Assembly: GCF_002900965.1 (NCBI RefSeq)
Contig: NZ_PJOM01000004.1
Coordinates: 1 to 64,000 of the forward strand
DNA length: 64,000 bases
Source of the DNA: Pseudotabrizicola formosa
GTDB taxonomy: Bacteria; Pseudomonadota; Alphaproteobacteria; Rhodobacterales; Rhodobacteraceae
Reading direction: 5' to 3'
In this document: piece by piece, positions 33,611 to 47,023 of the stretch
How the letters are laid out: every line of letters starts with the position of its first letter
Numbering within the stretch: the first letter of the stretch is position 1
The notes under the pieces: model-generated
The model's input: the letters and a program-made list of their open reading frames with translations, nothing else
What the model was told of the DNA's origin: nothing
Database searches by the model: none
Position numbers and translations under genes: made by a program

Positions 33611-33687
33611 TCACTTGCGATGGGAAAGCCCGACATGGCGGGCAATGGTGCTGACGGTGAACACCTGCCGCGGGCGGTTTGCACGGG

Positions 33688-33803
33688 AATCAAACCGGCA
33701 TTTCTGCAGCCGCTGTCGCAAGCCCCTGACAAACCGCCAAATTTCAATGAGCCTTCTGGTGATCCCGACAGGACTTGAACCTGTAACCTGCCCCTTAGGA
33801 GGG
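33688..33803. repeat. Left attachment-site repeat with displaced tRNA-Arg 3' half
   Basis: A 116-base stretch that aligns without gaps to 46878-46993, with roughly five of six bases identical. The last 27 bases (33777-33803, beginning GAACCTGTAACC) are exact and match the tRNA-Arg(CCT) gene from T arm to anticodon loop. The tRNA-like part outside this core has three changes, as expected for a displaced, non-functional 3' half. This is the end of the element beside the integrase gene. Confidence 0.85.
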
Positions 33804-33805
33804 AT

Positions 33806-34912
33806 TCATTCATTTTCCTGATCCTTCTTTGTTTTCTTATGCTTGAGCGGTCGAGGTTCGGTCGGTTGTACATAGTTTGTACGAAACCGCGCCCTGACAT
33901 CGGCCTCGTCCGTCTCGGCGTGGGCATAGATGCGCATGGGCAGATTGGGGTCTGACCAGCGCCCGGCCTTGGCCGCCGTGACCGGATCGACGCCTTGTCG
34001 CACTACCAGTTCGGTGAAAAACCCGTGCCGCCCGGCGGGGTGTGCCGACAGGTAAGGGATGCCCGCGCGCTTGCATATCGTCTTCCAGCGGTTGTTGTAG
34101 CCGGTCGGGCTGCCATAGCCAAAGACGCGTGGCGACAACAGTTGCCCCGTCTTTAGGTTCTTGGGCCGCTTCGGCTTCAACACCACCAGCTCGGCCATCA
34201 TCTGCGGCGAAACGGTGATCCAGCCCTCCGGGTGGCCTTTCTGCGCCTTGATGCACACCTCGCAGGTGGCAGGCCGCAGATCATCCGGTTCGATGGACAC
34301 CGCCTGATCGATCCGCGCCGCTGTCTCGAACATGAAACGCACCATGGCGGCGTTGTAGGGGTCGGCGGCGGCACAGAAGGCTTCGATCCAGTCGCGCGTC
34401 GCAGGGATGCGCTCGATCCGGCTGGGCTTGCGCCGCCGCTGGTCCTGCGCGATGCGCTCAAACTTGTCGTAACGCTTCACGCGCAGTAACGGCGTGCCCT
34501 TGTGCTCATGCGCGTTGTTGATGACTGCCCGCGCGGGCGTCACGATCTCGCGCCACCAGGTATCGGTGCAGGCGTTCGGCTTGAGCTTGCGACCGAGGCA
34601 TTTCAGCAGCGCGCCCGTTATCGCGCCCAGCGGCATATCCCCGATCTCGTCGAGGATCGGCAGAAGCTGCTTCGCCGTCTTGGCGGAGGGGTGATAGAAA
34701 TCGACTGCATCGGCAAAGCGCAGACTGTGCTCTTCCCCGATCAGGTACTTGCGGACCTGAAGCTGGGTTTCGTCGTTTATCCAGTCCCGCGCGCCAGCTT
34801 CAGTAGTCGCTCGCGTGCTTTGGCGGTATGGACCGGCGATCGGTCGGCCATTGTATTCGACCCAGCCCTTGACCCAGAAGACGGAGCCACGCTTGTAGAT
34901 TTCGAGCGGCAT
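33806..34912 (-). CDS. int: Tyrosine recombinase (integrase)
   Basis: A 368-residue site-specific recombinase that should insert and excise the element at tRNA-Arg. The catalytic residues are visible: Arg200 (FETAARIDQAVS), a Lys near 225 (IKAQKGH), the H-P-A-G-R-H-G variant of the H-x-x-R box (Arg295, His296), Trp319 (GRWSDPN) and the nucleophile Tyr329 (RIYAHAE). The N-terminal part carries the arm- and core-binding domains. Its stop lies two bases from the attachment core. The ATG at 34912 lies inside the 3' end of the excisionase-like gene. Confidence 0.93.
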   Translation of the reverse strand: MPLEIYKRGSVFWVKGWVEYNGRPIAGPYRQSTRATTEAGARDWINDETQLQVRKYLIGEEHSLRFADAVDFYHPSAKTAKQLLPILDEIGDMPLGAITGALLKCLGRKLKPNACTDTWWREIVTPARAVINNAHEHKGTPLLRVKRYDKFERIAQDQRRRKPSRIERIPATRDWIEAFCAAADPYNAAMVRFMFETAARIDQAVSIEPDDLRPATCEVCIKAQKGHPEGWITVSPQMMAELVVLKPKRPKNLKTGQLLSPRVFGYGSPTGYNNRWKTICKRAGIPYLSAHPAGRHGFFTELVVRQGVDPVTAAKAGRWSDPNLPMRIYAHAETDEADVRARFRTNYVQPTEPRPLKHKKTKKDQENE

Positions 34913-35145
34913 GCCTGTCCTTCCTCGAAGATGGTGTCAATTTGCGCGGGGGTGATCAGCATGGTCCGTCCCAGCCGGAAGAACGCGCCGGTGTCGTTGG
35001 CCTTTTCGCGTAGCGTCCGCTCAGAAATCTCGATCCCGTGGTCGGCCATGATCTCGACCCATTGGGCCGGGGTCTTGCCGATGGTGAGGATCTGGGAGCT
35101 TTCAATTATCTCAATCTCCGCCACTTGGATCGTCCTTTCTTGCAT
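34777..35145 (-). CDS. Excisionase-like small DNA-binding protein
   Basis: A 122-residue protein whose middle part (ISERTLREKANDTGAFFRLGRTMLITPAQIDTIFE, read in pieces) looks like an AlpA/Xis winged helix that bends DNA for excision. I start at the ATG at 35145; the frame is open to 35169. The last 45 residues overlap the integrase gene by 136 bases in another frame and are Ser/Arg-rich and probably unstructured. Such a long overlap is unusual and ties translation of the two genes together. It is divergent from the repressor gene. Confidence 0.65.
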   Translation of the reverse strand: MQERTIQVAEIEIIESSQILTIGKTPAQWVEIMADHGIEISERTLREKANDTGAFFRLGRTMLITPAQIDTIFEEGQACRSKSTSVAPSSGSRAGSNTMADRSPVHTAKARERLLKLARGTG

Positions 35146-35187
35146 GTGTCCACGACTACGCCTACGCATAGAATCGCTTGTTCAGCA

Positions 35188-35242
35188 CCATCTGACGTGT
35201 TCAGATGGGATCAAACGTATATTGTCGTCATTTTGTGCGACA
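35188..35242. promoter_or_regulatory. Lysogeny-type control region with two operators
   Basis: Between the divergent excisionase and repressor genes are two dyads. One is the perfect CCATCTGA-N5-TCAGATGG (35188-35208); the other is TGTCG-N10-CGACA (35223-35242), 39 bases before the repressor ATG. A TATATT (35218-35223) lies between them as a -10 candidate. The XRE repressor is the likely binder. Confidence 0.6.
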
Positions 35243-35281
35243 TTCGCCCAAATGGTAATGCACGTCAATCGGAAAACGCAC

Positions 35282-35704
35282 ATGACGCGAGAGCCATCAG
35301 ATCTGTTCGCCGAGATGGGCCCGCGCCTTGCGATCACTCGCAACGACATTGGCCTGTCGCAAGCGGCCATGGCGGAAGCGCTGGGCGTGTCCCCTCGGGC
35401 CTATCACAGCTACGAAAAAGGCAAGCGCGGTATACCAGTCGAGGCCTTGGTCGCGATGATCGAACGGTTCGACCTAGACGTGCGCTGGTTGTTGATCGGA
35501 GCAAAATCGGTACGGGCAAACCATGATTTTGAGGCGCTGAAGAACATCGAAAACTCACTGGACAGGCATCTGATGGCGGAAGGCATCAAGATCAAAAGCG
35601 AGAAGCGGGGGGCGATCATCGCCCGCTGGTATCAATCGCATATCGAAGGGCGCGAGGTCGTCGACGACGATGTGCACACTTGGATCGAACTGGTAAGGGA
35701 CTAG
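35282..35704 (+). CDS. XRE-family repressor of the element
   Basis: A 140-residue protein with an N-terminal lambda-Cro-type HTH (ITRNDIGLSQAAMAEALGVSPRAYHSYEKGKRGIP in segments, roughly residues 15-50) and a C-terminal helical part that may dimerise. I choose the ATG at 35282 with CGGAAA upstream; ATGs at 35252 and 35258 are in frame. Facing away from the excision genes with operators between, it fits the role of maintenance repressor. Confidence 0.82.
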   Translation: MTREPSDLFAEMGPRLAITRNDIGLSQAAMAEALGVSPRAYHSYEKGKRGIPVEALVAMIERFDLDVRWLLIGAKSVRANHDFEALKNIENSLDRHLMAEGIKIKSEKRGAIIARWYQSHIEGREVVDDDVHTWIELVRD

Positions 35705-35708
35705 ACTG

Positions 35709-36005
35709 TTGGAAAGACCGAGCAAAAAGTGGCAGAGCGTGCGCAGGGCAACTTTGGAGCGAGCCCGCAGAGCAGCGATACAACCGCTTGAGCACCTACA
35801 TTTAATCTACTTCGGCGTCTGCATCTGCTACCTTACTGGCTTCGTGCGCTTTCAGTTCTTCGACCCCGCGGCAGGTTTCACTTGGATCACTGGGACGCAA
35901 CTCCTGATCGTTGCGTTCGCGGGTGCGCTTATGCCGATCCTCACCGGATCGGTGCTCACTCTGCATTTCGCCAGTCGAAAACTGCAACGTCTGGCGACCG
36001 AATGA
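35709..36005 (+). CDS. Small two-helix membrane protein
   Basis: A 98-residue protein starting at a TTG four bases after the repressor stop, with AAGGGA eight bases upstream. A basic N-terminus (about 25 residues) is followed by two hydrophobic segments (near residues 31-48 and 62-82). I know no family for it. The tight coupling to the repressor gene suggests it is real. It precedes the HigA-type gene by 27 bases and could be a small effector or a superinfection-exclusion type protein; nothing in the sequence proves either. Confidence 0.55.
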   Translation: MERPSKKWQSVRRATLERARRAAIQPLEHLHLIYFGVCICYLTGFVRFQFFDPAAGFTWITGTQLLIVAFAGALMPILTGSVLTLHFASRKLQRLATE

Positions 36006-36032
36006 CAGGTAGGAGCTTATGAGGAGGCGAAA

Positions 36033-36368
36033 ATGAAGCGCGACCCCAACAGCTGTCCCACACACCCGGGGGAACTGCTCCGCAAGGATGTGATCCCTGC
36101 GACGGGGGAATCCAAGGCAGCGGTCGCACGGTTACTCGGCATCTCGCGTCAGCACCTGCATAGCGTTCTGGCCGAGCGAAAGCGGGTAAGTCCAGAGGTC
36201 GCTGTGCGCCTTGCCAAGCTTTTCGGAAATGAGCCCCTGTTCTGGATCAGGATGCAGGGTGTCTATGACGCATGGCATGCTTGCCAAGACGTGGATGTTT
36301 CGGCGGTGCCGACGCTAATTCCTTCCGAGCGCGGCGTAGCAAGTCGCCGGTCGGCGTCTTCGCGGTGA
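36033..36368 (+). CDS. higA: HigA/VapI-type HTH protein without a HigB
   Basis: A 111-residue protein with a standard HigA antitoxin HTH: HPGELLRKDVIP, ARLLGISRQHLHSVLAERKRVSPEVAVRLAKLFG and FWIRMQGVYDAWHA (segments). GAGGAGG precedes the ATG at 36033. HigB-type toxins normally lie directly upstream; here that place is taken by the membrane protein, and no RelE-like protein is nearby. Five bases separate it from the next gene, so it probably serves as transcriptional regulator of the defence-like operon 36374-38942. The Ser/Arg-rich last 15 residues are unusual for the family. Confidence 0.82.
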   Translation: MKRDPNSCPTHPGELLRKDVIPATGESKAAVARLLGISRQHLHSVLAERKRVSPEVAVRLAKLFGNEPLFWIRMQGVYDAWHACQDVDVSAVPTLIPSERGVASRRSASSR

Positions 36369-36373
36369 CCCCC

Positions 36374-37222
36374 ATGCTCCAGTTCGACGGCCGTTGGAGA
36401 TTTGACAGTCCAGGTCCGATAGAAACCGGCGTCGACAACGCTTTCCGTGACCTCATTAATCGGATTGCTGGACAAGCTCCGCGTAAATCCATCCTCGAGC
36501 ATTTCAAGTCACGGTTTGCCTCTGCGGCCAACATCCAATACTGGCCGAGCAGCAACGAGCGGTTCGCCGCCGAGGATCTCACGACCGCCATGTCCGCAGC
36601 AGCGACGAACGCGCCTCTATTCATCGAAGCGTTCTGGCTCGGCTGTGAGGAACTCCGGCTCCGTCATCCCGAAATGGTGTTGCCCGACGCGGGTCGGATC
36701 AACCGCATCCTCACCGACACAAACGCCGGCTATCAGCTCGATCCGCCCCTGCTGGTTGCCACCCGTGTGCATATCCCCATCGCGGTTCCGACCCCGCCCC
36801 CATCACTGGATGTGCAGGCCCGGTCGCTCATCGAGCAGGCGCTGCAAGCCTCAGAACACGCCCTGGCCGAGGGGAACGGCCGACAGGCCGTCCAGGAAGT
36901 CTTGTGGCTACTGGAGACCATCTCCACTGCATTTCGCAGTCCTGAGGTGTTCGACGGCACCATTCAGGGACGCTACTTCAACAAAATAGTCGGTGAGTTG
37001 CGCCTGCGCGGTCGCGGGCATCAGGAACAGATCCTGCAATGGATGATGACATTGCATGGATACCTGTCCTCCCCCACCGGCGGCGGGGTGCGCCATGGCG
37101 TCGATCTCAAGGAAGGCCTCGCTCTGGGAATCGAAGAGGCGCGTCTCTACTGCAATCTCATCCGTAGCTACCTGACATTTCTCATGGCGGAGCATGAGCG
37201 CCTGACAAGGCGCGTCGCATGA
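36374..37222 (+). CDS. Abortive-infection-like protein with Abi C-terminus-like domain
   Basis: A 282-residue soluble protein. Its C-terminal third (GGGVRHGVDLKEGLALGIEEARLYCNLIRSYLTFLMAEH in pieces) resembles the Abi C-terminal domain (PF14355), a helical RN/HG-type module of abortive-infection proteins related to HEPN folds. The middle part (INRILTDTNAGYQLD) resembles the N-terminal halves of such proteins. I use the ATG at 36374; the frame is open upstream inside higA. It overlaps the next gene by ATGA. Function in phage defence is inferred from this similarity, the neighbours and the mobile context; no nuclease motif is certain. Confidence 0.65.
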   Translation: MLQFDGRWRFDSPGPIETGVDNAFRDLINRIAGQAPRKSILEHFKSRFASAANIQYWPSSNERFAAEDLTTAMSAAATNAPLFIEAFWLGCEELRLRHPEMVLPDAGRINRILTDTNAGYQLDPPLLVATRVHIPIAVPTPPPSLDVQARSLIEQALQASEHALAEGNGRQAVQEVLWLLETISTAFRSPEVFDGTIQGRYFNKIVGELRLRGRGHQEQILQWMMTLHGYLSSPTGGGVRHGVDLKEGLALGIEEARLYCNLIRSYLTFLMAEHERLTRRVA

Positions 37223-38106
37223 CCGTCTATATGACGAAGACGTGGGGATTTGGATCGCCATCCGGGCCACTTCAATTTAGCCAGCGCGGGTGGCGGGACC
37301 GAGCCCGCGGCCTCCTCCGGCCAGGCGATCTTGTAGTGATCGTCGGCACGATGGGCGATGAAACCCATTCCGAAGAGCGCGGCATGATCCTTGGCCTCAT
37401 GGAGCCGACCACGACGATCGTCAGCTCACTCGACTACGACCTCGCCCGTGGCCCACGCGATTTCGATGAGGCTGGCAACTACCGCTGGCCGTTCGGGCTC
37501 GAACTCTTGCGTGCCTGGCGCTTCCTCGAAACAAGGACCGCCTTGTCGGCGATCTCGCCACGGCGCTTCAGCATGGATTCCGCGCAGGGAATCGTACCGC
37601 TCCTCGCAGATGAGGCCGAGGCGATCCTGCTCTTGCCCAGAGAACCGGTCGCGCTGCTCCGGCCCGCTCGAACCGAGGCACGGGTCGCGGGTCTAGAGGC
37701 AGCTCGCCGGCGAGGCGCACCGCCACCAACGACCAAGCGCACCGGCATCATGCATATGCGGAGGGCACCAGCCTTCACCTACGCCATGATGATCGAAGGC
37801 GCTTCACCCCCTTCGTTCAAGATTGGCTGGGCCTTTGACTGGAGGCGGCGGGAGCGCAATTTCAACCAGTCAGCCATGCCCGAGCTCGGTGGCGTTCGAT
37901 ACCGCACGATCCTCCACGAACTGTGGGACACGGCCATAGATGCCTTTCGCATGGAGCAGGCGATCCTCCACCATTTCGATGCTCTCCGGCATGCGCGCAA
38001 TCAAGAGGTGGTATCCGCGGTCTCGGCGGACACGATCCAGAAGTCGTGGATCGATTACCTTTCGAACTACAGGAAGCGGAGCACACGGGGAGGAAAAGGC
38101 ACATGA
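37219..38106 (+). CDS. Two-domain protein: EVE/PUA-like N-terminus and GIY-YIG-like (T5orf172) C-terminus
   Basis: A 295-residue protein. Residues 1-100 (GLLRPGDLVVIVGTMGDE, SEERGMILGLMEPTT) look like an EVE/PUA-type beta fold that reads modified bases. Residues 180-270 (FTYAMMIEG, SFKIGWAFDWRRRERNFN, DAFRMEQAILHHF) resemble the T5orf172/Mug113 branch of GIY-YIG nucleases, with KIG, the following Arg residues and a late Glu in expected places. Translation is coupled on both sides through ATGA overlaps. A nuclease guided by DNA modification would suit a defence operon; this is a hypothesis from weak similarity. Confidence 0.55.
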   Translation: MTVYMTKTWGFGSPSGPLQFSQRGWRDRARGLLRPGDLVVIVGTMGDETHSEERGMILGLMEPTTTIVSSLDYDLARGPRDFDEAGNYRWPFGLELLRAWRFLETRTALSAISPRRFSMDSAQGIVPLLADEAEAILLLPREPVALLRPARTEARVAGLEAARRRGAPPPTTKRTGIMHMRRAPAFTYAMMIEGASPPSFKIGWAFDWRRRERNFNQSAMPELGGVRYRTILHELWDTAIDAFRMEQAILHHFDALRHARNQEVVSAVSADTIQKSWIDYLSNYRKRSTRGGKGT

Positions 38107-38942
38107 AGAAGCCGTCCGCGATGGTCAGCAAGAGCACCAGGTTTCCCTTCCAGGTTGCCGTATCCTGTTGGATTGACCTGCTCGGCTATGGCGAGATGAT
38201 CTCCGCCTCCGGGTTCAATCCACTGCACGCCGAAGCGCGCGATGCCCTCGCTCGCATCAGGACGTTTCATCGCATCGTCGCCGACCACAGCGCGAGATAC
38301 TTTCCGACATTGGTGATGAATGATGGGGCGGTCGCCTATCGTGATCTCTCCCTGCGAGCGCGTTCACCTACTCACGATTTTCTCGTGCGGGCGTGGAAGA
38401 TGTTCGAGGCGGTCCGGATCGAGGACATGAAGAGTGGCCATCCAGGACCGCGGATGGTCTTGGCCTGCGGGTTTCGCATGCTGGGACGGCGTGCCGGCCT
38501 GGACGCGTCTCGCGACCACTTCAAATCAATCGTCGATCGGTTGCAGAGGGGCGATATCGGCGCCGAGCAAGCGGTACGCGAGGCAGCATCGATGCGGCCG
38601 CGCTTTGATATCGTCCCGCAACTGCAAGCGAACTTCGCCTTCACAAAAGCCTACATCGCCGAGCAGACCGGGACGAAGGGCAAACTTCCCGGTCCTGCAT
38701 TCTACGTGGACATGGCGATATTCGGCGGCGACCGTCCGCAATGGATTGATCTGGGCCCTGACATTGACTGGGCACACCCCAAGTTGAACTTGCATGCGGT
38801 TTTCGCTGAGGTCCGTGGCATGCAGGATGGGCGACATCCGAGCGGCGGGCCGACCGATATTCGCGATGGCCTTGCCGTTGCGCAGACGCTTGCCAACGAC
38901 CCAGATGTCCTTATGGCACTACGCGCCGCGGAAAAATCGTAG
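38103..38942 (+). CDS. Unknown protein with class III cyclase-fold-like motifs
   Basis: A 279-residue protein that I cannot place in a named family. Three segments occur in the order seen in class III nucleotide cyclases: SCWIDLLGYGEMI near residue 20 (like F-x-D-I-x-G-F), FPTLVMNDGAVAYRD near 65 (like the second metal Asp region) and RMVLACGFRMLGRRAG near 120 (like R-x-G-I-x-x-G). The residues around the second Asp differ from active cyclases. The C-terminal half (FAFTKAYIAEQTG, GPAFYVDMAIFGG) is unassigned. It is the last gene of the operon, coupled by ATGA. A second-messenger role is speculative. Confidence 0.5.
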   Translation: MKKPSAMVSKSTRFPFQVAVSCWIDLLGYGEMISASGFNPLHAEARDALARIRTFHRIVADHSARYFPTLVMNDGAVAYRDLSLRARSPTHDFLVRAWKMFEAVRIEDMKSGHPGPRMVLACGFRMLGRRAGLDASRDHFKSIVDRLQRGDIGAEQAVREAASMRPRFDIVPQLQANFAFTKAYIAEQTGTKGKLPGPAFYVDMAIFGGDRPQWIDLGPDIDWAHPKLNLHAVFAEVRGMQDGRHPSGGPTDIRDGLAVAQTLANDPDVLMALRAAEKS

Positions 38943-38978: not shown

Positions 38979-41900
38979 TTAGTCCGGGCATGCACCCTTT
39001 CCACCGGTCTGCTTCTTTGAACGCTTCTGACTGCGTCGGACCAAGGCGGCGGTCATCTCTGCCGGCCGCGATACATCCAACACAATGACCTCCAATTTGC
39101 CTTTCAGGGGTATCGGAATATCGTCAAGGAGCATCGTCTCCAGCCCCTTAGCGCTTGAAGGGGCTTCCCGGCCATCGCTCCGGGCGGGGATCGAAAACTC
39201 GGTCCCGAACCAGAAGACCAAATAAATTCCGTAGCCATCGGCCCCCACGTCCGATGCGTAGCCATTGAGCTGACTGAGGGGTGCCGTCCAAAGCTCCCTA
39301 TTGTAGTGCCGCTTTGCTTCGATCGGCAGGTTCTTGCCGGCGTGGCTGAGTAGCAGAACGTCGGCTCGCTTGTTCTCCCCGCGCCGTGCTTCAGGGAAAC
39401 TGCCGACAATCCCGTATCTCTCCAGACGAACCCGCATTAGTTCGAGCAGACGGTCCCGATCCTCGTTTTCGATCTGTGGTGTCGTTGCCGCTCCGTCCTT
39501 GTCGGTGTTCCAGAACCGCTTCCATGGGGTTTCGCTGCCTGTTCGCAACGTGCTCCTGTACCGATCGATCTCCTCAAGAACCACTGCTGTGAGATCTGCC
39601 GGACTTGCAGGGGCTCCCCCAGAAAGCGCCACGACGAGGTCACCCACCGGCGGCGCCGCATAGAGATCATCCCGCTTCATCCTGGCATGTTCGGCGGCCG
39701 CGTGGGCGAGTTGCGGCTTCCAACTCGGATGTACCTCTGATGAGAGCGTTCTTAGAATCTCGCCTGCGTCGGCACTTTTCGAAGCGCTCAGACGACGGAT
39801 GGCTGCCCTGATGATCCCGCTGACGGTGTTGGAGTGCAGCCAGTCATCGTCGTCGGCCTCGTGGGCTTTCCCAAGAACTGCGATTCGGATGCGATCCAGC
39901 ACATTGGGCTGCGGAGATAGTTCAAAGAGGGCAGTCGCCAGATCGCCGTTGGGCCGCAACAACGCGCCTCGGACCTGCTCATCGGGAACTTCGGCAGAAA
40001 AAGTAGTCGGATCGAGAGCCAGCGCAACAAAGCTCCAGATCTCGCGCTGCTCATCACCTAGATCGGTTCGCTTTAGTGCCTCGTCGGCAAAGCCCGCCAA
40101 ATCGTCGTCAGCAAGAACAGATGCAGCAGCGACCAAAGCCTGCCGCAATGCGGGCATCGGCAGGTGGGGCCGATGGTTCAGCAGTTCATGAAGGATGGCG
40201 GCGATGAACCCATGCTCTTCGGCGCTCACCAAGTGATGAAGGCCATCGAGATCGTCGTCTCCAGCGTCAAGGGCAGCATTCCAGTACCGCAACATCTGGC
40301 TGACGCCCTGCTCGCGATCCTGCGCGAGACGTTGCACCGCCCAAGTGGCAAGCCAGGGTCCGTCGTCGCCCGCAAAATAGCTCTGACGCATTCCAACCAG
40401 CGCGCAGACCAGTGGGGCCGCTGCAAGCTCGGCTTCCCGACCATGCAAGAGCCCCTGATGTATTCCAGCGGCTACAACATATTCCTGAGCGTAGGCGCCG
40501 TTGGTTGCCTCCGCCCGTCCGAGACTCTCCGCATCGACCTTGATGTCGGTGTGTATCGCGAACTGGACAAACCCTTCTGCAATGGCTGCGGCAATCTCCT
40601 CATTGGTATAGGTCGTGACTTTGGCGAGCGGCTCCTCCTTCTTTGATATTCTCGCGTTGCGGTAATGGTCGGCGGCCCACTTCAGCGCGCCGAACTCGCT
40701 CGCGACGCCGCTCGCGATCGCGGCGAGCTTCGGTGTCAACTCAGCGATGTTGTCTTTCCGTGAGACTTCTGTCTTTGCGTCCTGCTGAGCCTGCCTTTGC
40801 GCCTGCTGCTTTTTCCACTTGGCGTTCGGATCGGACAGCAGCGACTTTATGAATCCAACGTGGCCACCTTCCTCTTTGAGAATGACGACCATCTTTTCGC
40901 GCCACGTCGACCAATGCGCCTCACCGCGCGCCGTGTACGCGGCAATCTGAAAGAGCCGTTTGCGCCGTGGTCCCTTCGCCTCGTCCCGGGCCAACGCAAT
41001 CAGCGCCTCCACCAAGGACTCCGACGGAAGGCGGCGCATGGTCGAAATGTATTGGTTCACAACAACCCAAGGCCCATCTGTGGGTTCGCCGGATTTCGCC
41101 ATGGCGAGAAAAAAGTCCAGCTCCCGCGGCTGAGGTTCGGCGTCCATCCACTTCTGTATCACCTCGACCACGCCGCTATCGAGCATGTCCCAGACATGCT
41201 CGCGGGCATTGTTTATCCAAGTCCACAAGCGCTCGGCGTCAACATCGGGACGACGCTCAATTGTGGAGACCAGCGCCTGATCGATGAAGAAGCGAACTTG
41301 CGATTTCTGTCGGCGCCCGCCAGTCGACCCGTGCAAAATCGGTAGTTCGAAGAGGTCTTCCGGGGTAGACCGACGCAGGGCAAGAGCCAGCGCATTCAAA
41401 GCCCCGCGGTCTTTCACCTCATCATCATCATCCGATGGTGCGGGCAGTGCGCTGAAGTCAGCCAGGAGTTTTCGGATCTCGGATGCCGCTATCGCGTCGG
41501 CCGGCATCCCCGCCAGCAGTCTCGCCCTCAGTACCACCTGGCCGGCGTCGACGGGCTGACGCTCCAGCTCCGATATCAGGGCTCGCCGTATTGCCGTTCG
41601 GTCCCCTCCGGCTCTGACGGTCACTTCCGAGGCGCGTTCCCGCATCCACAACGGTCGGCCGGCTTCGAGAACGATCTCACGAAGTTTGCTCTGTATTCCC
41701 TGCACCGGCGGTCCATCTGCAAGAGCCTGCAGGACGGTAAGTTGGAGATGCCTACGGACGTCCGTGTCCAAGATCGTCGCGAAATCTCCGGCAAGATCCT
41801 CGCCGGCAAGCCCGCCCAGTACGGTCGCGTCGTCCTGCGCCGACAGGAAATAGGGATCGTCCCGGTCAAGATTGAAAAGGATCGCTTTTCGCCCGGAGGT

Positions 41901-43049
41901 GTCGAAAGCGGCAGCATCGCCATAGGCGAGCACGGTCGCGGCATCGCGATCGATGAGACGGAGTGCGCCCTGGGTGTCTCCCAGCTTATGAAGATGCGCC
42001 GCGAACCAGGCATAAAGTCCTCGAAGCTCGCTGGGTGCCTGGCGATCCGCGCCGGTGATGAACGCGAGGGCACGACGCAGGGGGAAAGCGTGATTGTTTC
42101 CCGTCCCCGTCACGATCCTTGCCAGGAAACGAGCAGCGAGAAACTCCGCCACTGTGCGATGGCAGACCTCGAAGGCATGACCCTCGCCGCGAAACAACGC
42201 CGTGTCCAAGGCGGCAGCGACCTGTGCAGGCTCGATGTCGAGCCCGTTGGTGCTCAGATACTCATTCGCGCTATCCGAATGAGGCGGCATGGCATTGGAG
42301 CGCCAGACCGCCCTGGCACCGGAAGCAAGGACGTAAAAGAATAGTCTGGAAGCAGTTTCGACAATGGCCTCGACGCTAGGTCTGGGATCGGTCACGCGTT
42401 CGGGATCGTACTCGTGGGCCAGTGCCCAGATGGCCTTTTCGAACAACTCGAAGCGCGTTCGAGGCCATGTTCCATCGGCCACCACGACCGAGTGAAGTAG
42501 CCGGAGACTCAGGGGGCTTTCGAGAAAGGCCGCTGCGCCGCGCGTCCGCGCCTCGATCACGAATGCTCGCGGATCAGCAGCGCCAAGCGCTGTGAGGACG
42601 GCCTGGGCCTCAGTTTCGTCCAAGGGCAGAAGGCGCGCGACGACGATGGAGCCGTTGTTGGCCGCCCGTCGCATGGCCCCAAGATCTGCGGCATCACGCC
42701 AGTCCTCAGCCCGACAGGTCAGGCGCCAGCGATGGCGTTTGCTCGCTGACAACGCGCTGGCAAGTTGCAGGAGCTTGTCTTTGCCGTTCTCGCCCGTCCG
42801 ATATTCGTCTAAGGCATCGAGATATACCGTATCGGCGGCCGGCAGCGCCGCGCCACTCATCGCTTCACGACAGGTGAAGACCTCGCCCCCTTCGGCCGCG
42901 GCCTCATAGCGCAACGCCGTCGACTTCCCGAGGCCGGGCTCGCCAAGCAGAACGACGAACGGTTCGTCGCGCAGCGAGCTCAGTTGGCGCTCGCTCGCTT
43001 CTGCCTCGCTGTGAACAAGGACGCGTCGGTCCAAGGATGCAATCTTCAT
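38979..43049 (-). CDS. STAND-type NTPase with C-terminal PD-(D/E)XK-like domain
   Basis: A 1356-residue protein. Near the N-terminus is a P-loop NTPase: Walker A GEPGLGKST (residues 36-44), Walker B VYLDALDE (to about 82), and a sensor-like RWRLTCRAEDW. A long helical-repeat region with no known domain fills about 350-1180. Near the C-terminus, RADVLLLSHAGKNLPIEAKRH places Asp1230, Glu1244 and Lys1246 in the order of PD-(D/E)XK nucleases, with a Gln at about 1260. I use the ATG at 43049; a TTG at 43082 is in frame. The design (NTPase, sensor repeats, nuclease) recalls Avs-type phage sensors, which usually carry the effector at the N-terminus. It is convergent with the preceding operon. Confidence 0.75.
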   Translation of the reverse strand: MKIASLDRRVLVHSEAEASERQLSSLRDEPFVVLLGEPGLGKSTALRYEAAAEGGEVFTCREAMSGAALPAADTVYLDALDEYRTGENGKDKLLQLASALSASKRHRWRLTCRAEDWRDAADLGAMRRAANNGSIVVARLLPLDETEAQAVLTALGAADPRAFVIEARTRGAAAFLESPLSLRLLHSVVVADGTWPRTRFELFEKAIWALAHEYDPERVTDPRPSVEAIVETASRLFFYVLASGARAVWRSNAMPPHSDSANEYLSTNGLDIEPAQVAAALDTALFRGEGHAFEVCHRTVAEFLAARFLARIVTGTGNNHAFPLRRALAFITGADRQAPSELRGLYAWFAAHLHKLGDTQGALRLIDRDAATVLAYGDAAAFDTSGRKAILFNLDRDDPYFLSAQDDATVLGGLAGEDLAGDFATILDTDVRRHLQLTVLQALADGPPVQGIQSKLREIVLEAGRPLWMRERASEVTVRAGGDRTAIRRALISELERQPVDAGQVVLRARLLAGMPADAIAASEIRKLLADFSALPAPSDDDDEVKDRGALNALALALRRSTPEDLFELPILHGSTGGRRQKSQVRFFIDQALVSTIERRPDVDAERLWTWINNAREHVWDMLDSGVVEVIQKWMDAEPQPRELDFFLAMAKSGEPTDGPWVVVNQYISTMRRLPSESLVEALIALARDEAKGPRRKRLFQIAAYTARGEAHWSTWREKMVVILKEEGGHVGFIKSLLSDPNAKWKKQQAQRQAQQDAKTEVSRKDNIAELTPKLAAIASGVASEFGALKWAADHYRNARISKKEEPLAKVTTYTNEEIAAAIAEGFVQFAIHTDIKVDAESLGRAEATNGAYAQEYVVAAGIHQGLLHGREAELAAAPLVCALVGMRQSYFAGDDGPWLATWAVQRLAQDREQGVSQMLRYWNAALDAGDDDLDGLHHLVSAEEHGFIAAILHELLNHRPHLPMPALRQALVAAASVLADDDLAGFADEALKRTDLGDEQREIWSFVALALDPTTFSAEVPDEQVRGALLRPNGDLATALFELSPQPNVLDRIRIAVLGKAHEADDDDWLHSNTVSGIIRAAIRRLSASKSADAGEILRTLSSEVHPSWKPQLAHAAAEHARMKRDDLYAAPPVGDLVVALSGGAPASPADLTAVVLEEIDRYRSTLRTGSETPWKRFWNTDKDGAATTPQIENEDRDRLLELMRVRLERYGIVGSFPEARRGENKRADVLLLSHAGKNLPIEAKRHYNRELWTAPLSQLNGYASDVGADGYGIYLVFWFGTEFSIPARSDGREAPSSAKGLETMLLDDIPIPLKGKLEVIVLDVSRPAEMTAALVRRSQKRSKKQTGGKGACPD

Positions 43050-43513
43050 GAGCAAAAATACTTTCGCTTCTGTCAGCGACAAAGAACAAAATGCGAGTCC
43101 TTGCCCGCTACACGCTCAGCAGACCTTGAAACACGCCTTCGTAGGGCAGCTTTTCGTCCCCAATTTCCGAAAAGCCGACAGTCTTGGGCAAGCTCCTACC
43201 CAAATCTGATCACGGTGAAAATCAGATTCTGATCGACGGAAACCCTCCGTATGCTGCGCATCGTCGGCGCGCTTAGCCTATTTCATTCCTTGATCTTTGT
43301 GCCAAGGCTTAGCGCACCTCCGGCGAGCTACAGGAAGCCCCAAACGGGGATGCTTTTGCAAGGTTGAAGTCCACCAGGTTCGCGATGGATAAGGCAGCAG
43401 ATATAATCACTGCTCGCTCTTGCGTAGCGCGGCTAATAGCCCTTGAGCTATGATGATTGATTATCGTCTATGGACTATATTGACAGAATATCGCCAAAAG
43501 ACTATCAGAGCCT
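43050..43513. promoter_or_regulatory. Intergenic region with the hipBA promoter
   Basis: No gene is supported in these 464 bases. At the right end, TTGACA (43480-43485), a 17-base spacer and TATCAG (43503-43508) form a good sigma-70-type promoter. It ends only five bases before the hipB ATG, so the transcript may have almost no leader. GACTAT repeats at 43473-43478 and 43499-43504 flank the -35 box and may be HipB sites. The left end holds the promoter of the STAND gene. Confidence 0.5.
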
Positions 43514-43762
43514 ATGCTGAACGCGCCTGCATATCCCATCAGAAGCCTTCGGCAAGCCGGGGCCGTCCTGCGCGCCAGGCGTGCTTCGCGCAGGATCAGC
43601 CAGAAGCAATTGGGGCAGATGACGGGAACGGCACAATCTACCATCTCGGACATCGAGAATGGCGTGGTGTCGGTCAGCCTCGATGTCTATCTGCGCCTCC
43701 TCGAAGCTCTGGATGCGGAGTTGTCAGCGACCGATCGTCTGGTCGACCGGGACGTGACCTGA
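43514..43762 (+). CDS. hipB: HipB-type antitoxin/HTH regulator
   Basis: An 82-residue XRE-type protein: AVLRARRASRRISQKQLGQMTGTAQSTISDIENG (segments) is the HTH, and VSLDVYLRLLEALDAEL the following helix. It should neutralise HipA and repress its own operon. It ends one base before the hipA ATG. Confidence 0.88.
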   Translation: MLNAPAYPIRSLRQAGAVLRARRASRRISQKQLGQMTGTAQSTISDIENGVVSVSLDVYLRLLEALDAELSATDRLVDRDVT

Positions 43763-43763
43763 G

Positions 43764-45089
43764 ATGGCGCGTATTGCCCGCGCTGCTCGCGGCACACGCC
43801 AGAGCCAGACCGCAGTCTGGTACGAGAGATCCAGGGTAGGCACGCTGGCGCGTGCGACCGATGGAGCGATCAGCTTCACCTATGATGCTGCATGGCTCGT
43901 GTCCGAGACAGCCTTTCCTGTGGCCAGCGCCTTGCCGCTGTTGAAGGCCAGATGGCAAGGCGATCCCGTGGTGGCGGCCTTCGACAACCTTCTGCCCGAC
44001 GCGGAGGGTGAGCTGCGCGAAAAGATCGCCGCACGAGTTGGTGCACAGGGCAAGGATGTATTCTCGCTGCTATCGGTGTTGGGGCGCGACTGCGTCGGTG
44101 CGCTCCAGTTTCTGCCGATGGATGAGGCCCCTGCAGAACAGGACATGCAGTATCGGCTCATCTCGGAAGAAGAGATGGTTGCCGATCTGAGAAATCTCGC
44201 GGCTGCCCCGCTCGCGCAAGGCGACGATGAGGATTTCAGGATTTCCATCGCAGGCGCCCAGGAAAAGACTGCCTATCTGCATGTGGATGGTCAGTGGGCA
44301 AAGCCGCGCGGCATCACGCCCACCAGTCATATCTTTAAGACACCCATGGGCATCCTGCCCGGCCCGGACCAGATCGACTTAAGCGACAGCGTCGAAAACG
44401 AACTGTTCTGCATGACCCTTGCACGGGAAATCGGGTTGCCCGCCGCGCATGTCGAGAAGATCGTCCTTCCCGGGCAAGTAGTACTGTCGGTCGAACGATT
44501 CGATCGGGTTTGGCAGGGTGAGACGCTAAAACGTTTGCCACAGGAGGATATTTGCCAGTCGCTGGGGTACCCCTCAGCTATGAAGTACCAGAAGGTGGGC
44601 GGCCCGGGCATCGCGCAAATCATGGAGCTTTTGCGGGAATCCGATACACCGATCGAGGATCGGGAGACCTTCTTTCAGGCGCAGATTTTCTACTTCCTGA
44701 TCGGTGCGTCGGATGGCCATGCCAAGAATTTTAGTTTGCGTCTGGGACGCCAGGGCCGCTTCAGCCTCGCGCCCCTGTATGACATCCTGAGCGTCGCTCC
44801 AGTCGTTCGCGCCGGGCGCTTGCAGCGCAAGCGTTACCGGCTCGCCATGTCGGTCGATGGCCATTACGGCGTTGACGAGATCGTGCCCCGACACTTCGAG
44901 TCCGAAGGGCGCGCCGCAGGTCTTCCCAAGGGCCGCGCCTTGGAGCTGCTGCAGGACGTGACGGACCAGCTGGGTCCGGCGCTGGAACGCGCGATGGTGG
45001 CAGTCGGCACCCAGGTGCCTCAAAGCGTCAGCGACCCGATAGCAGATGACGCGATGCAGCGGGCTGCGCAGGTCAAGGAACTGCTTTAG
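43764..45089 (+). CDS. hipA: HipA-family serine/threonine kinase toxin
   Basis: A 441-residue HipA-type kinase; E. coli HipA inactivates glutamyl-tRNA synthetase by phosphorylation and causes dormancy. The HipA N-terminal domain is followed by the kinase core: ISIAGAQEKTAY (nucleotide loop), VENELFCMTLAREIGLP, VERFDRV, the catalytic-loop Asp in GASDGHAKNFSL and the metal Asp in PLYDILS. All key residues seem intact. It lies on the tRNA-Arg element, where it may act in element maintenance or phage defence. Its stop overlaps the convergent MobC-like gene by four bases. Confidence 0.92.
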   Translation: MARIARAARGTRQSQTAVWYERSRVGTLARATDGAISFTYDAAWLVSETAFPVASALPLLKARWQGDPVVAAFDNLLPDAEGELREKIAARVGAQGKDVFSLLSVLGRDCVGALQFLPMDEAPAEQDMQYRLISEEEMVADLRNLAAAPLAQGDDEDFRISIAGAQEKTAYLHVDGQWAKPRGITPTSHIFKTPMGILPGPDQIDLSDSVENELFCMTLAREIGLPAAHVEKIVLPGQVVLSVERFDRVWQGETLKRLPQEDICQSLGYPSAMKYQKVGGPGIAQIMELLRESDTPIEDRETFFQAQIFYFLIGASDGHAKNFSLRLGRQGRFSLAPLYDILSVAPVVRAGRLQRKRYRLAMSVDGHYGVDEIVPRHFESEGRAAGLPKGRALELLQDVTDQLGPALERAMVAVGTQVPQSVSDPIADDAMQRAAQVKELL

Positions 45090-45948: not shown

Positions 45949-46812
45949 TCATGCCGCCAGCCCCGCCGCGCGCAGCTGGCCATCGGTCACCAACCCCGCC
46001 GTCACCAGCGCCGCCAACTGCGGGGCGGTGATGTGCTTGCACATCGGGCTGCGGTCGCGGACCCAAGTGGCCAGCCGGGCGTGGTGGTCGGCCGCGAGGG
46101 CCGTCTGCGCCTGCCGCTCCTCGGCCAACGCATCGAGGAAGCGCTGCCACCGCCGGTCGGCGAACCAGTTATCCGCGAAACAGACTTTTGACCTCGTGAA
46201 GCCCACACTCTCGGTGGCGTAGGCCTGCACAGCGCGCAGCAGGTCGTCGGGGTCAACACCCTCCTTCACGGCCTCCCTGATCCGGGCAAGGCACGCAGCT
46301 TTGCCGCGTTGCCGGTCCTTCGGGTAGGCGGCCAAGATCTTCTCGAACCTTTCATCCTCCACTGCCGCCGCCTTCGCGCGCTCGCGCGTAGGTGGTTTAT
46401 GGATGGTTTTAGGGTGGTTTGGGGTCCACAGTGGACCCCGTACCCCGTCCACGGTGGACCCCGTACCGGGTTCAGGCTGGACGGGGTCCACCGTGGACCC
46501 CGTCCCGTCATCGGGTTCGGCCATCGATTCCAATTGCATCACGCGTGCCAGAACGATGCGATAGATCACTGTGAAACCATTCTTGCAGGGGCGGCGTCCG
46601 GTTTCGATCAAGATGCCCTCGCGCAGGAAATCGCTGATCGTCCGCTTCACGGTGCTTTCGCCCAGCTCGGTGTGGCGCTGGACCGTGCCCTTTGAGCACC
46701 AGATGCCAGAGCCATCGTCGCTCGCCTTGTCGGCCAGGAACATGATGATCTGTTTGCGGGCGGCACTGCCGAACCTGCGGTCGGCACATTCGTTCGCAAC
46801 GCGCCAGCTCAT
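45949..46812 (-). CDS. Helix-turn-helix replication protein, phage-O-like
   Basis: A 287-residue protein. The N-terminal winged helix (CSKGTVQRHTELGESTVKRTISDFLREGILIETG in segments, residues 38-75) is like those of phage and plasmid replication initiators. A linker of GTGSTVD repeats (residues about 100-125) follows, then a helical C-terminal domain (FEKILAAYPKDRQRGKAACLARIREA) typical of O-like proteins that load a helicase. GAGG precedes the ATG at 46812. The linker is encoded by palindromic repeats (46421-46503), the arrangement seen in lambda O, whose gene contains the origin. Confidence 0.72.
   Translation of the reverse strand: MSWRVANECADRRFGSAARKQIIMFLADKASDDGSGIWCSKGTVQRHTELGESTVKRTISDFLREGILIETGRRPCKNGFTVIYRIVLARVMQLESMAEPDDGTGSTVDPVQPEPGTGSTVDGVRGPLWTPNHPKTIHKPPTRERAKAAAVEDERFEKILAAYPKDRQRGKAACLARIREAVKEGVDPDDLLRAVQAYATESVGFTRSKVCFADNWFADRRWQRFLDALAEERQAQTALAADHHARLATWVRDRSPMCKHITAPQLAALVTAGLVTDGQLRAAGLAA
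46421..46503. repeat. Three palindromic iterons inside the replication gene
   Basis: GGGGTCCAC-N-GTGGACCCC occurs at 46421-46439 and 46483-46501, the latter extended to 11-bp arms (46481-46503). A shorter copy, GTCCAC-N-GTGGAC, is at 46447-46459. They encode the GTGSTVD linker. T/G-rich DNA (46390-46420) lies next to the first copy. This is a candidate origin bound by the encoded protein. Confidence 0.65.
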
Positions 46813-46877
46813 TGCAGGGCCTCAACTTGTACAGGTTTTGTACAGAAATCCCGACTGCCGCCCCAGATTTCCCGCGA

Positions 46878-46993
46878 AATCAAACGGGCGTTTCCGCAGC
46901 CGCCTTCGCAAGCCCCTGACAAAACTCTATGTTTTATTGGGTTTTTTGGTGACCCCGACAGGATTCGAACCTGTAACCTGCCCCTTAGGAGGG
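46878..46993. repeat. Right attachment-site repeat overlapping tRNA-Arg
   Basis: The partner of 33688-33803, the same length and gap-free. It contains the 3' half of the intact tRNA and about 70 bases beyond it, including the shared block from GCAGCCGC to CCCCTGACAAA. The exact core is 46967-46993. The similarity beyond the tRNA is more than simple integration requires. Confidence 0.85.
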
Positions 46994-47023
46994 GGCTGCT
47001 CTATCCAGTTGAGCCACGGGACC
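46947..47023 (-). tRNA. tRNA-Arg (anticodon CCT)
   Basis: A 77-base gene with encoded CCA. The acceptor strands GGTCCCG / CGGGGTC, D stem GCTC / GAGC, anticodon stem GCCCC / GGGGC around CTCCTAA (anticodon CCT) and T stem ACAGG / CCTGT with TTCGAAT are all present. Its 3' half was supplied by the integrated element. Confidence 0.95.

Follow-up and report, generated by a model that had tools for sequence, protein, structure and literature searches.

Three consecutive genes of the alphaproteobacterium Pseudotabrizicola formosa, here called P2, P3 and P4, form a mobile cassette that is carried as cargo by a tRNA-Arg integrative element, in the slot immediately behind a carrier gene encoding a HigA-family regulator. 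The trio moves as one piece among bacteria of soil and water. On balance we favour the view that this cassette is a set of separable modules that serve defence. It is probable that the trio is directed against phages or plasmids, and rather doubtful that the three proteins depend on one another.

Layout, copies and carrier of the cassette

The window, i.e. the entire stretch of 64,000 nucleotides that was analysed (contig NZ_PJOM01000004.1, positions 1 to 64,000), contains the cassette and the carrier features collected in Table 1. The higA stop codon and the P2 start lie five bases apart, and P2/P3 as well as P3/P4 overlap by ATGA; the reading frames and the operon-like spacing given in the first-pass annotation of this DNA were confirmed in every respect, coordinates, gap and overlaps included. 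P2, P3 and P4 are real genes with orthologues in three other genomes that are 91-99% identical at the protein level, and their dN/dS values (mostly 0.05-0.27, with one pair at 0.44) reveal purifying selection on all three.

Table 1. Features of the tRNA-Arg element and its cargo, in coordinates of the window
Feature	Position	Strand	Evidence or remark
att copy, integrase side	33665..33803	.	27-nt identical core at 33777-33803
Tyrosine integrase of the carrier	33806..34912	-	Pfam Phage_integrase, E 4.4e-8
HigA-family regulator	36033..36368	+	TIGR02607, E 8e-23
Cassette leader	36329..36373	+	left homology limit with L021; start of the segment common to 4/4 copies
P2, 282 aa	36374..37222	+	LSxPxGGxVRHG conserved near the C terminus
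P3, 295 aa	37219..38106	+	predicted EVE-like N-terminal (PUA-type) and T5orf172/GIY-YIG-like C-terminal domains; matches below curated cut-offs
P4, 279 aa	38103..38942	+	predicted class III nucleotidyl-cyclase fold (AlphaFold2, Foldseek, motifs)
EruA-like NACHT/STAND protein, convergent to the trio	38979..43082	-	NF058535, E 2.4e-282
HTH regulator and HipA toxin (HipBA-like), additional cargo	43514..45089	+	
att copy overlapping the tRNA-Arg(CCT) gene	46855..46993	.	tRNA at 46947-47023, - strand

At the nucleotide level the cassette spans 36329-38942 and is 92-98% identical to copies in Shinella (L019), Oryzibacter (L020) and a Mesorhizobium MAG (L021), all of which are found without HigA and in different surroundings. 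Homology to the window starts at 36329 in each of them, inside the 3' end of higA; upstream of this point the Shinella and Oryzibacter loci stay homologous to each other, and the Mesorhizobium locus diverges at the window's own breakpoint. The first two have both flanks in common and differ solely in an EruA-like gene that in L019 (10878-15182) separates P4 from the right flank, which makes the trio the smallest shared unit and its NACHT neighbour optional. The four copies occupy at least three contexts, namely the HigA backbone, the vicinity of a type IIG-like methylase (L021) and the common flanks of L019 and L020. Within the latter, the Oryzibacter locus encodes, after the trio, a 227-aa protein with an RHEIMH stretch that belongs to no Pfam family (L020:4775-5458).

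The EruA-like gene of the window matches NF058535 over its full length with 940 bits, against a curated cut-off of 1000. It accompanies the trio in L019 and L021 and is missing from L020, and is therefore separable from it. By eye, the C-terminal region of its product is apparently nuclease-like. A literature search found no paper on the NACHT EruA; the EruA described in PMC12839154 is an unrelated regulator.

Complete trios are represented by four closely related copies only. The idea that the three effector genes are co-conserved elsewhere holds for the three other genomes, but distant relatives of P2, P3 and P4 keep different neighbours, each gene in different company. Judging from these comparisons, the spread of the trio reflects joint transfer within one recent lineage and not deep conservation. 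Since the co-conservation falls within this lineage and distant relatives have other partners, it does not establish the three genes as one interdependent system.

The carrier was correctly recognised at the outset as a tRNA-Arg integrative element: a direct repeat of 139 nt (33665-33803 versus 46855-46993, 79% identical) overlaps the tRNA-Arg(CCT) gene on one side and adjoins the tyrosine integrase on the other. Another member of the family, from a different genus (G041), harbours a 13.2-kb tRNA-Arg element that aligns to the window from the att site to HigA, with a match of 87.5% over 33685-36331 that covers att site, integrase, regulators and HigA and ends at 36331. Past this point it carries GNAT-like, ShosA/DprA-like, multi-ubiquitin/E2, ThiF-JAB and capP-like peptidase genes (L107, G041:C48:1-17000). 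The comparison points to a tRNA-Arg element with an exchangeable defence slot, which the cassette would have entered directly behind higA, and from whose higA side it is now probably transcribed. Towards the right end of the element, a 23-nt GTCCACNGTGGACCCCGT repeat occurs three times (window 46424-46508).

The three proteins and their relatives

P2 had been thought to be an Abi-like protein of the Abi_C type, an identity that profile comparison does not bear out. Abi_C (PF14355) yields no Pfam match to P2, is hit by 2 of 13 relatives with a best E of 0.028, and reaches an hhalign probability of 2.5%; SsdA_C was likewise discarded, its E values of 0.08-0.19 being taken as chance. P2 has many relatives on rhizobial plasmids, often encoded immediately downstream of AbiEi-AbiEii, and P2 relatives also adjoin TIGR02391 genes (Hypoth_Ymh, PADLOC PD-Lambda-3_B) at three loci (L043, L048 and L007); scans of viral contigs returned none. 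P2 would be an accessory protein of a kind that is repeatedly appended to AbiE-type toxin operons. In the relative on the Agrobacterium Ti plasmid NC_002377 (L008:5001-5846), the stretch that aligns to P2 is interrupted by an in-frame stop codon.

The N-terminal domain of P3 compares to EVE with an hhalign E of 0.0013 and to the PDB UPF0310/EVE-family protein 1wmm with an E of 0.11, both below curated cut-offs, and Pfam EVE is detected in one relative at a likewise sub-threshold E of 0.062. The C-terminal domain compares to T5orf172 with an hhalign E of 0.0033; Pfam T5orf172 matches P3 and two close relatives at the same position (E 0.0045-0.045, below the cut-off), and a distant relative at the matching position (E 0.23). 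The EVE/GIY-YIG architecture proposed in the first-pass annotation is consistent with this series of weak matches, although each of them is under its curated cut-off, and their combination makes it reasonably likely that P3 is a modification-dependent nuclease. In one locus (L041) a relative of the N-terminal domain ends in an HNH-like stretch instead (E 0.15), and other P3 relatives are encoded downstream of AbiEii or of a restriction-endonuclease gene. No relative was found in the viral contig scans and no match in the phage records. The structure model of P3, computed from four near-identical sequences, failed (pLDDT 35.5).

The AlphaFold2 model of P4, built from an alignment of 18 sequences, has a pLDDT of 82.6, and all 41 matches below E 1e-3 that Foldseek retrieved from the PDB are class III cyclase domains, with Cya2 as the best (E 2.9e-6); the cyclase fold suspected from the sequence is hence upheld by the predicted structure. 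The motifs WIDLLGYG and NDGA, conserved family-wide, put D25 and D74 at the class III metal-binding positions; all full-length family members examined retain both aspartates, together with N177 and a basic residue at position 182. Profile-profile comparison of the family with Guanylate_cyc gave no signal, so that the cyclase call rests on fold and motifs and the family must be highly divergent from ordinary cyclase domains. It appears to be undescribed in the libraries searched. Whether P4 is an active cyclase is an evenly balanced call.

Relatives of P4 lie directly downstream of a PDC-S24 Fic candidate (L022) and of PDC-S06 AAA_13 ATPase genes (L033, L034), behind AbiEii with one small gene between (L010), and also alone. 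No recurrent partner outside the trio emerged across 19 loci, and no cyclic-nucleotide-binding effector was present among the neighbours scanned. In Phyllobacterium (L028) a truncated P4 relative is accompanied by a few bases that resemble the end of P3. The viral contig scans contain a P4 relative at one locus, and the phage records no match. A TIR reading of the small gene ahead of P4 in L012 was dropped, as it has no Pfam match.

Possible modes of action

The most likely scenario is that the EVE-like domain of P3 reads a modified base and the T5orf172/GIY-YIG-like domain cuts the DNA, in the manner of a type IV-like restriction enzyme. P4 would most likely be a nucleotidyl cyclase or a cyclase-derived protein that either contributes a step of nucleotide signalling or controls the other products of the operon.

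A different arrangement, which we regard as unlikely, is a single interdependent signalling system with Pycsar-like logic and a new effector, in which P4 would respond to infection by synthesising a cyclic nucleotide as activator of the nuclease P3, or of P2. The overlapping genes, the joint transfer in four contexts and the congruent divergence are all in keeping with such a system, and so is the conservation of the metal-binding aspartates; but a nucleotide-binding effector domain was not detected in P2 or P3, P4 relatives are found alone or with varied partners of which none is common to the 19 loci, and P2 and P3 have relatives that exist without P4. Less probable still is a role for P4 in which its cyclase fold produces no signal but, being catalytically dead or ligand-sensing, controls or restrains toxins or nucleases encoded nearby, P3 among them. 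That P4 is repeatedly encoded right after Fic, AAA_13 and AbiE-type genes would suit this role, as would the spacing of the basic residue, which follows the conserved Asn at N+5 and in class III cyclases at N+4. Against it, the retention of both aspartates in all full-length members examined would be unexpected for a dead enzyme, and P4 is also found alone.

The proposal of the first-pass annotation, a four-gene toxin-antitoxin-like operon with HigA as its antitoxin or regulator, could draw on the gap of just five bases and on the control that HigA could exert over the downstream genes in this strain, but is hardly tenable and has already been largely refuted by genome comparison, given that HigA belongs to a carrier backbone with unrelated cargo in another genus, is missing from the other three trio loci, has near relatives that align only up to residue 95-106, and is separated by some 228 kb of the contig from the nearest HigB, the only match in the genome (C9:264725). 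As the antitoxin half of HigBA, HigA itself is well matched (TIGR02607, E 8e-23); no HigB adjoins it, and a 98-aa ORF upstream has no family match. The last 13 codons of the window's higA (36329-36368) fall within cassette sequence. On these alignments HigA is a backbone gene of the carrier element and stands outside the cassette, and any regulation of P2-P4 by HigA in this strain may be a local accident at most.

Relation to named systems and wider meaning

P2-P4 match no named system in PADLOC, NCBIfam, Pfam or PHROGs, as had been surmised. The combination is new; apart from the P4 family, its components belong to types already known or predicted. Fusions of EVE and GIY-YIG domains have been predicted to act as type IV enzymes (Bell et al. 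2020, PMC7641849), and P3 resembles these and the EVE-HNH type IV enzymes (PMC7641849; VcaM4I, PMC7897488) in its predicted succession of an N-terminal EVE-like domain and a nuclease domain; it differs in that its EVE and T5orf172 matches are under curated cut-offs and in being encoded alongside P2 and P4. CMoRE (PMC12923530) likewise combines a modification-sensing domain and a GIY-YIG-type nuclease in a single protein, but is a single-component system whose nuclease is N-terminal, whereas in P3 the putative sensor comes first and the T5orf172-type domain last.

With Pycsar (PycC and PycTIR/PycTM; PMC11224242) P4 shares the predicted class III cyclase fold, the two metal-binding aspartates and the defence context. 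Unlike Pycsar, the trio is devoid of a CNBD-TIR or CNBD-TM effector (a cyclic-nucleotide-binding domain with TIR or TM was found in neither P2 nor P3), and P4 has no PADLOC match and cannot be aligned to Guanylate_cyc by profile. The type IV toxin-antitoxin operons of AbiE (PMC3985639) are related by company, since relatives of P2, P3 and P4 each occur in or beside AbiEi-AbiEii elsewhere, but the operon in the window has neither AbiEi nor AbiEii (no AbiE match among P1-P5). A further parallel is provided by nuclease-protease pairs that recurrently join unrelated defence systems (PMC12799240), much as P4 and P2 are repeatedly attached to unrelated operons; the genes themselves are unrelated.

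It is tempting, if rather improbable in this full form, to see in P4 the founder of a class III cyclase-fold family that has been repeatedly acquired by unrelated defence operons (Fic, AAA_13, AbiE-type and EVE-nuclease) and would add nucleotide-signal or nucleotide-sensing control without the CNBD effectors of Pycsar. Overall, the comparison corrects the unit of interest to three genes, with HigA excluded, and brings to light in P4 an apparently undescribed family of predicted cyclase fold. Its recurrence downstream of various unrelated defence genes raises the question of nucleotide signalling beyond CBASS and Pycsar.
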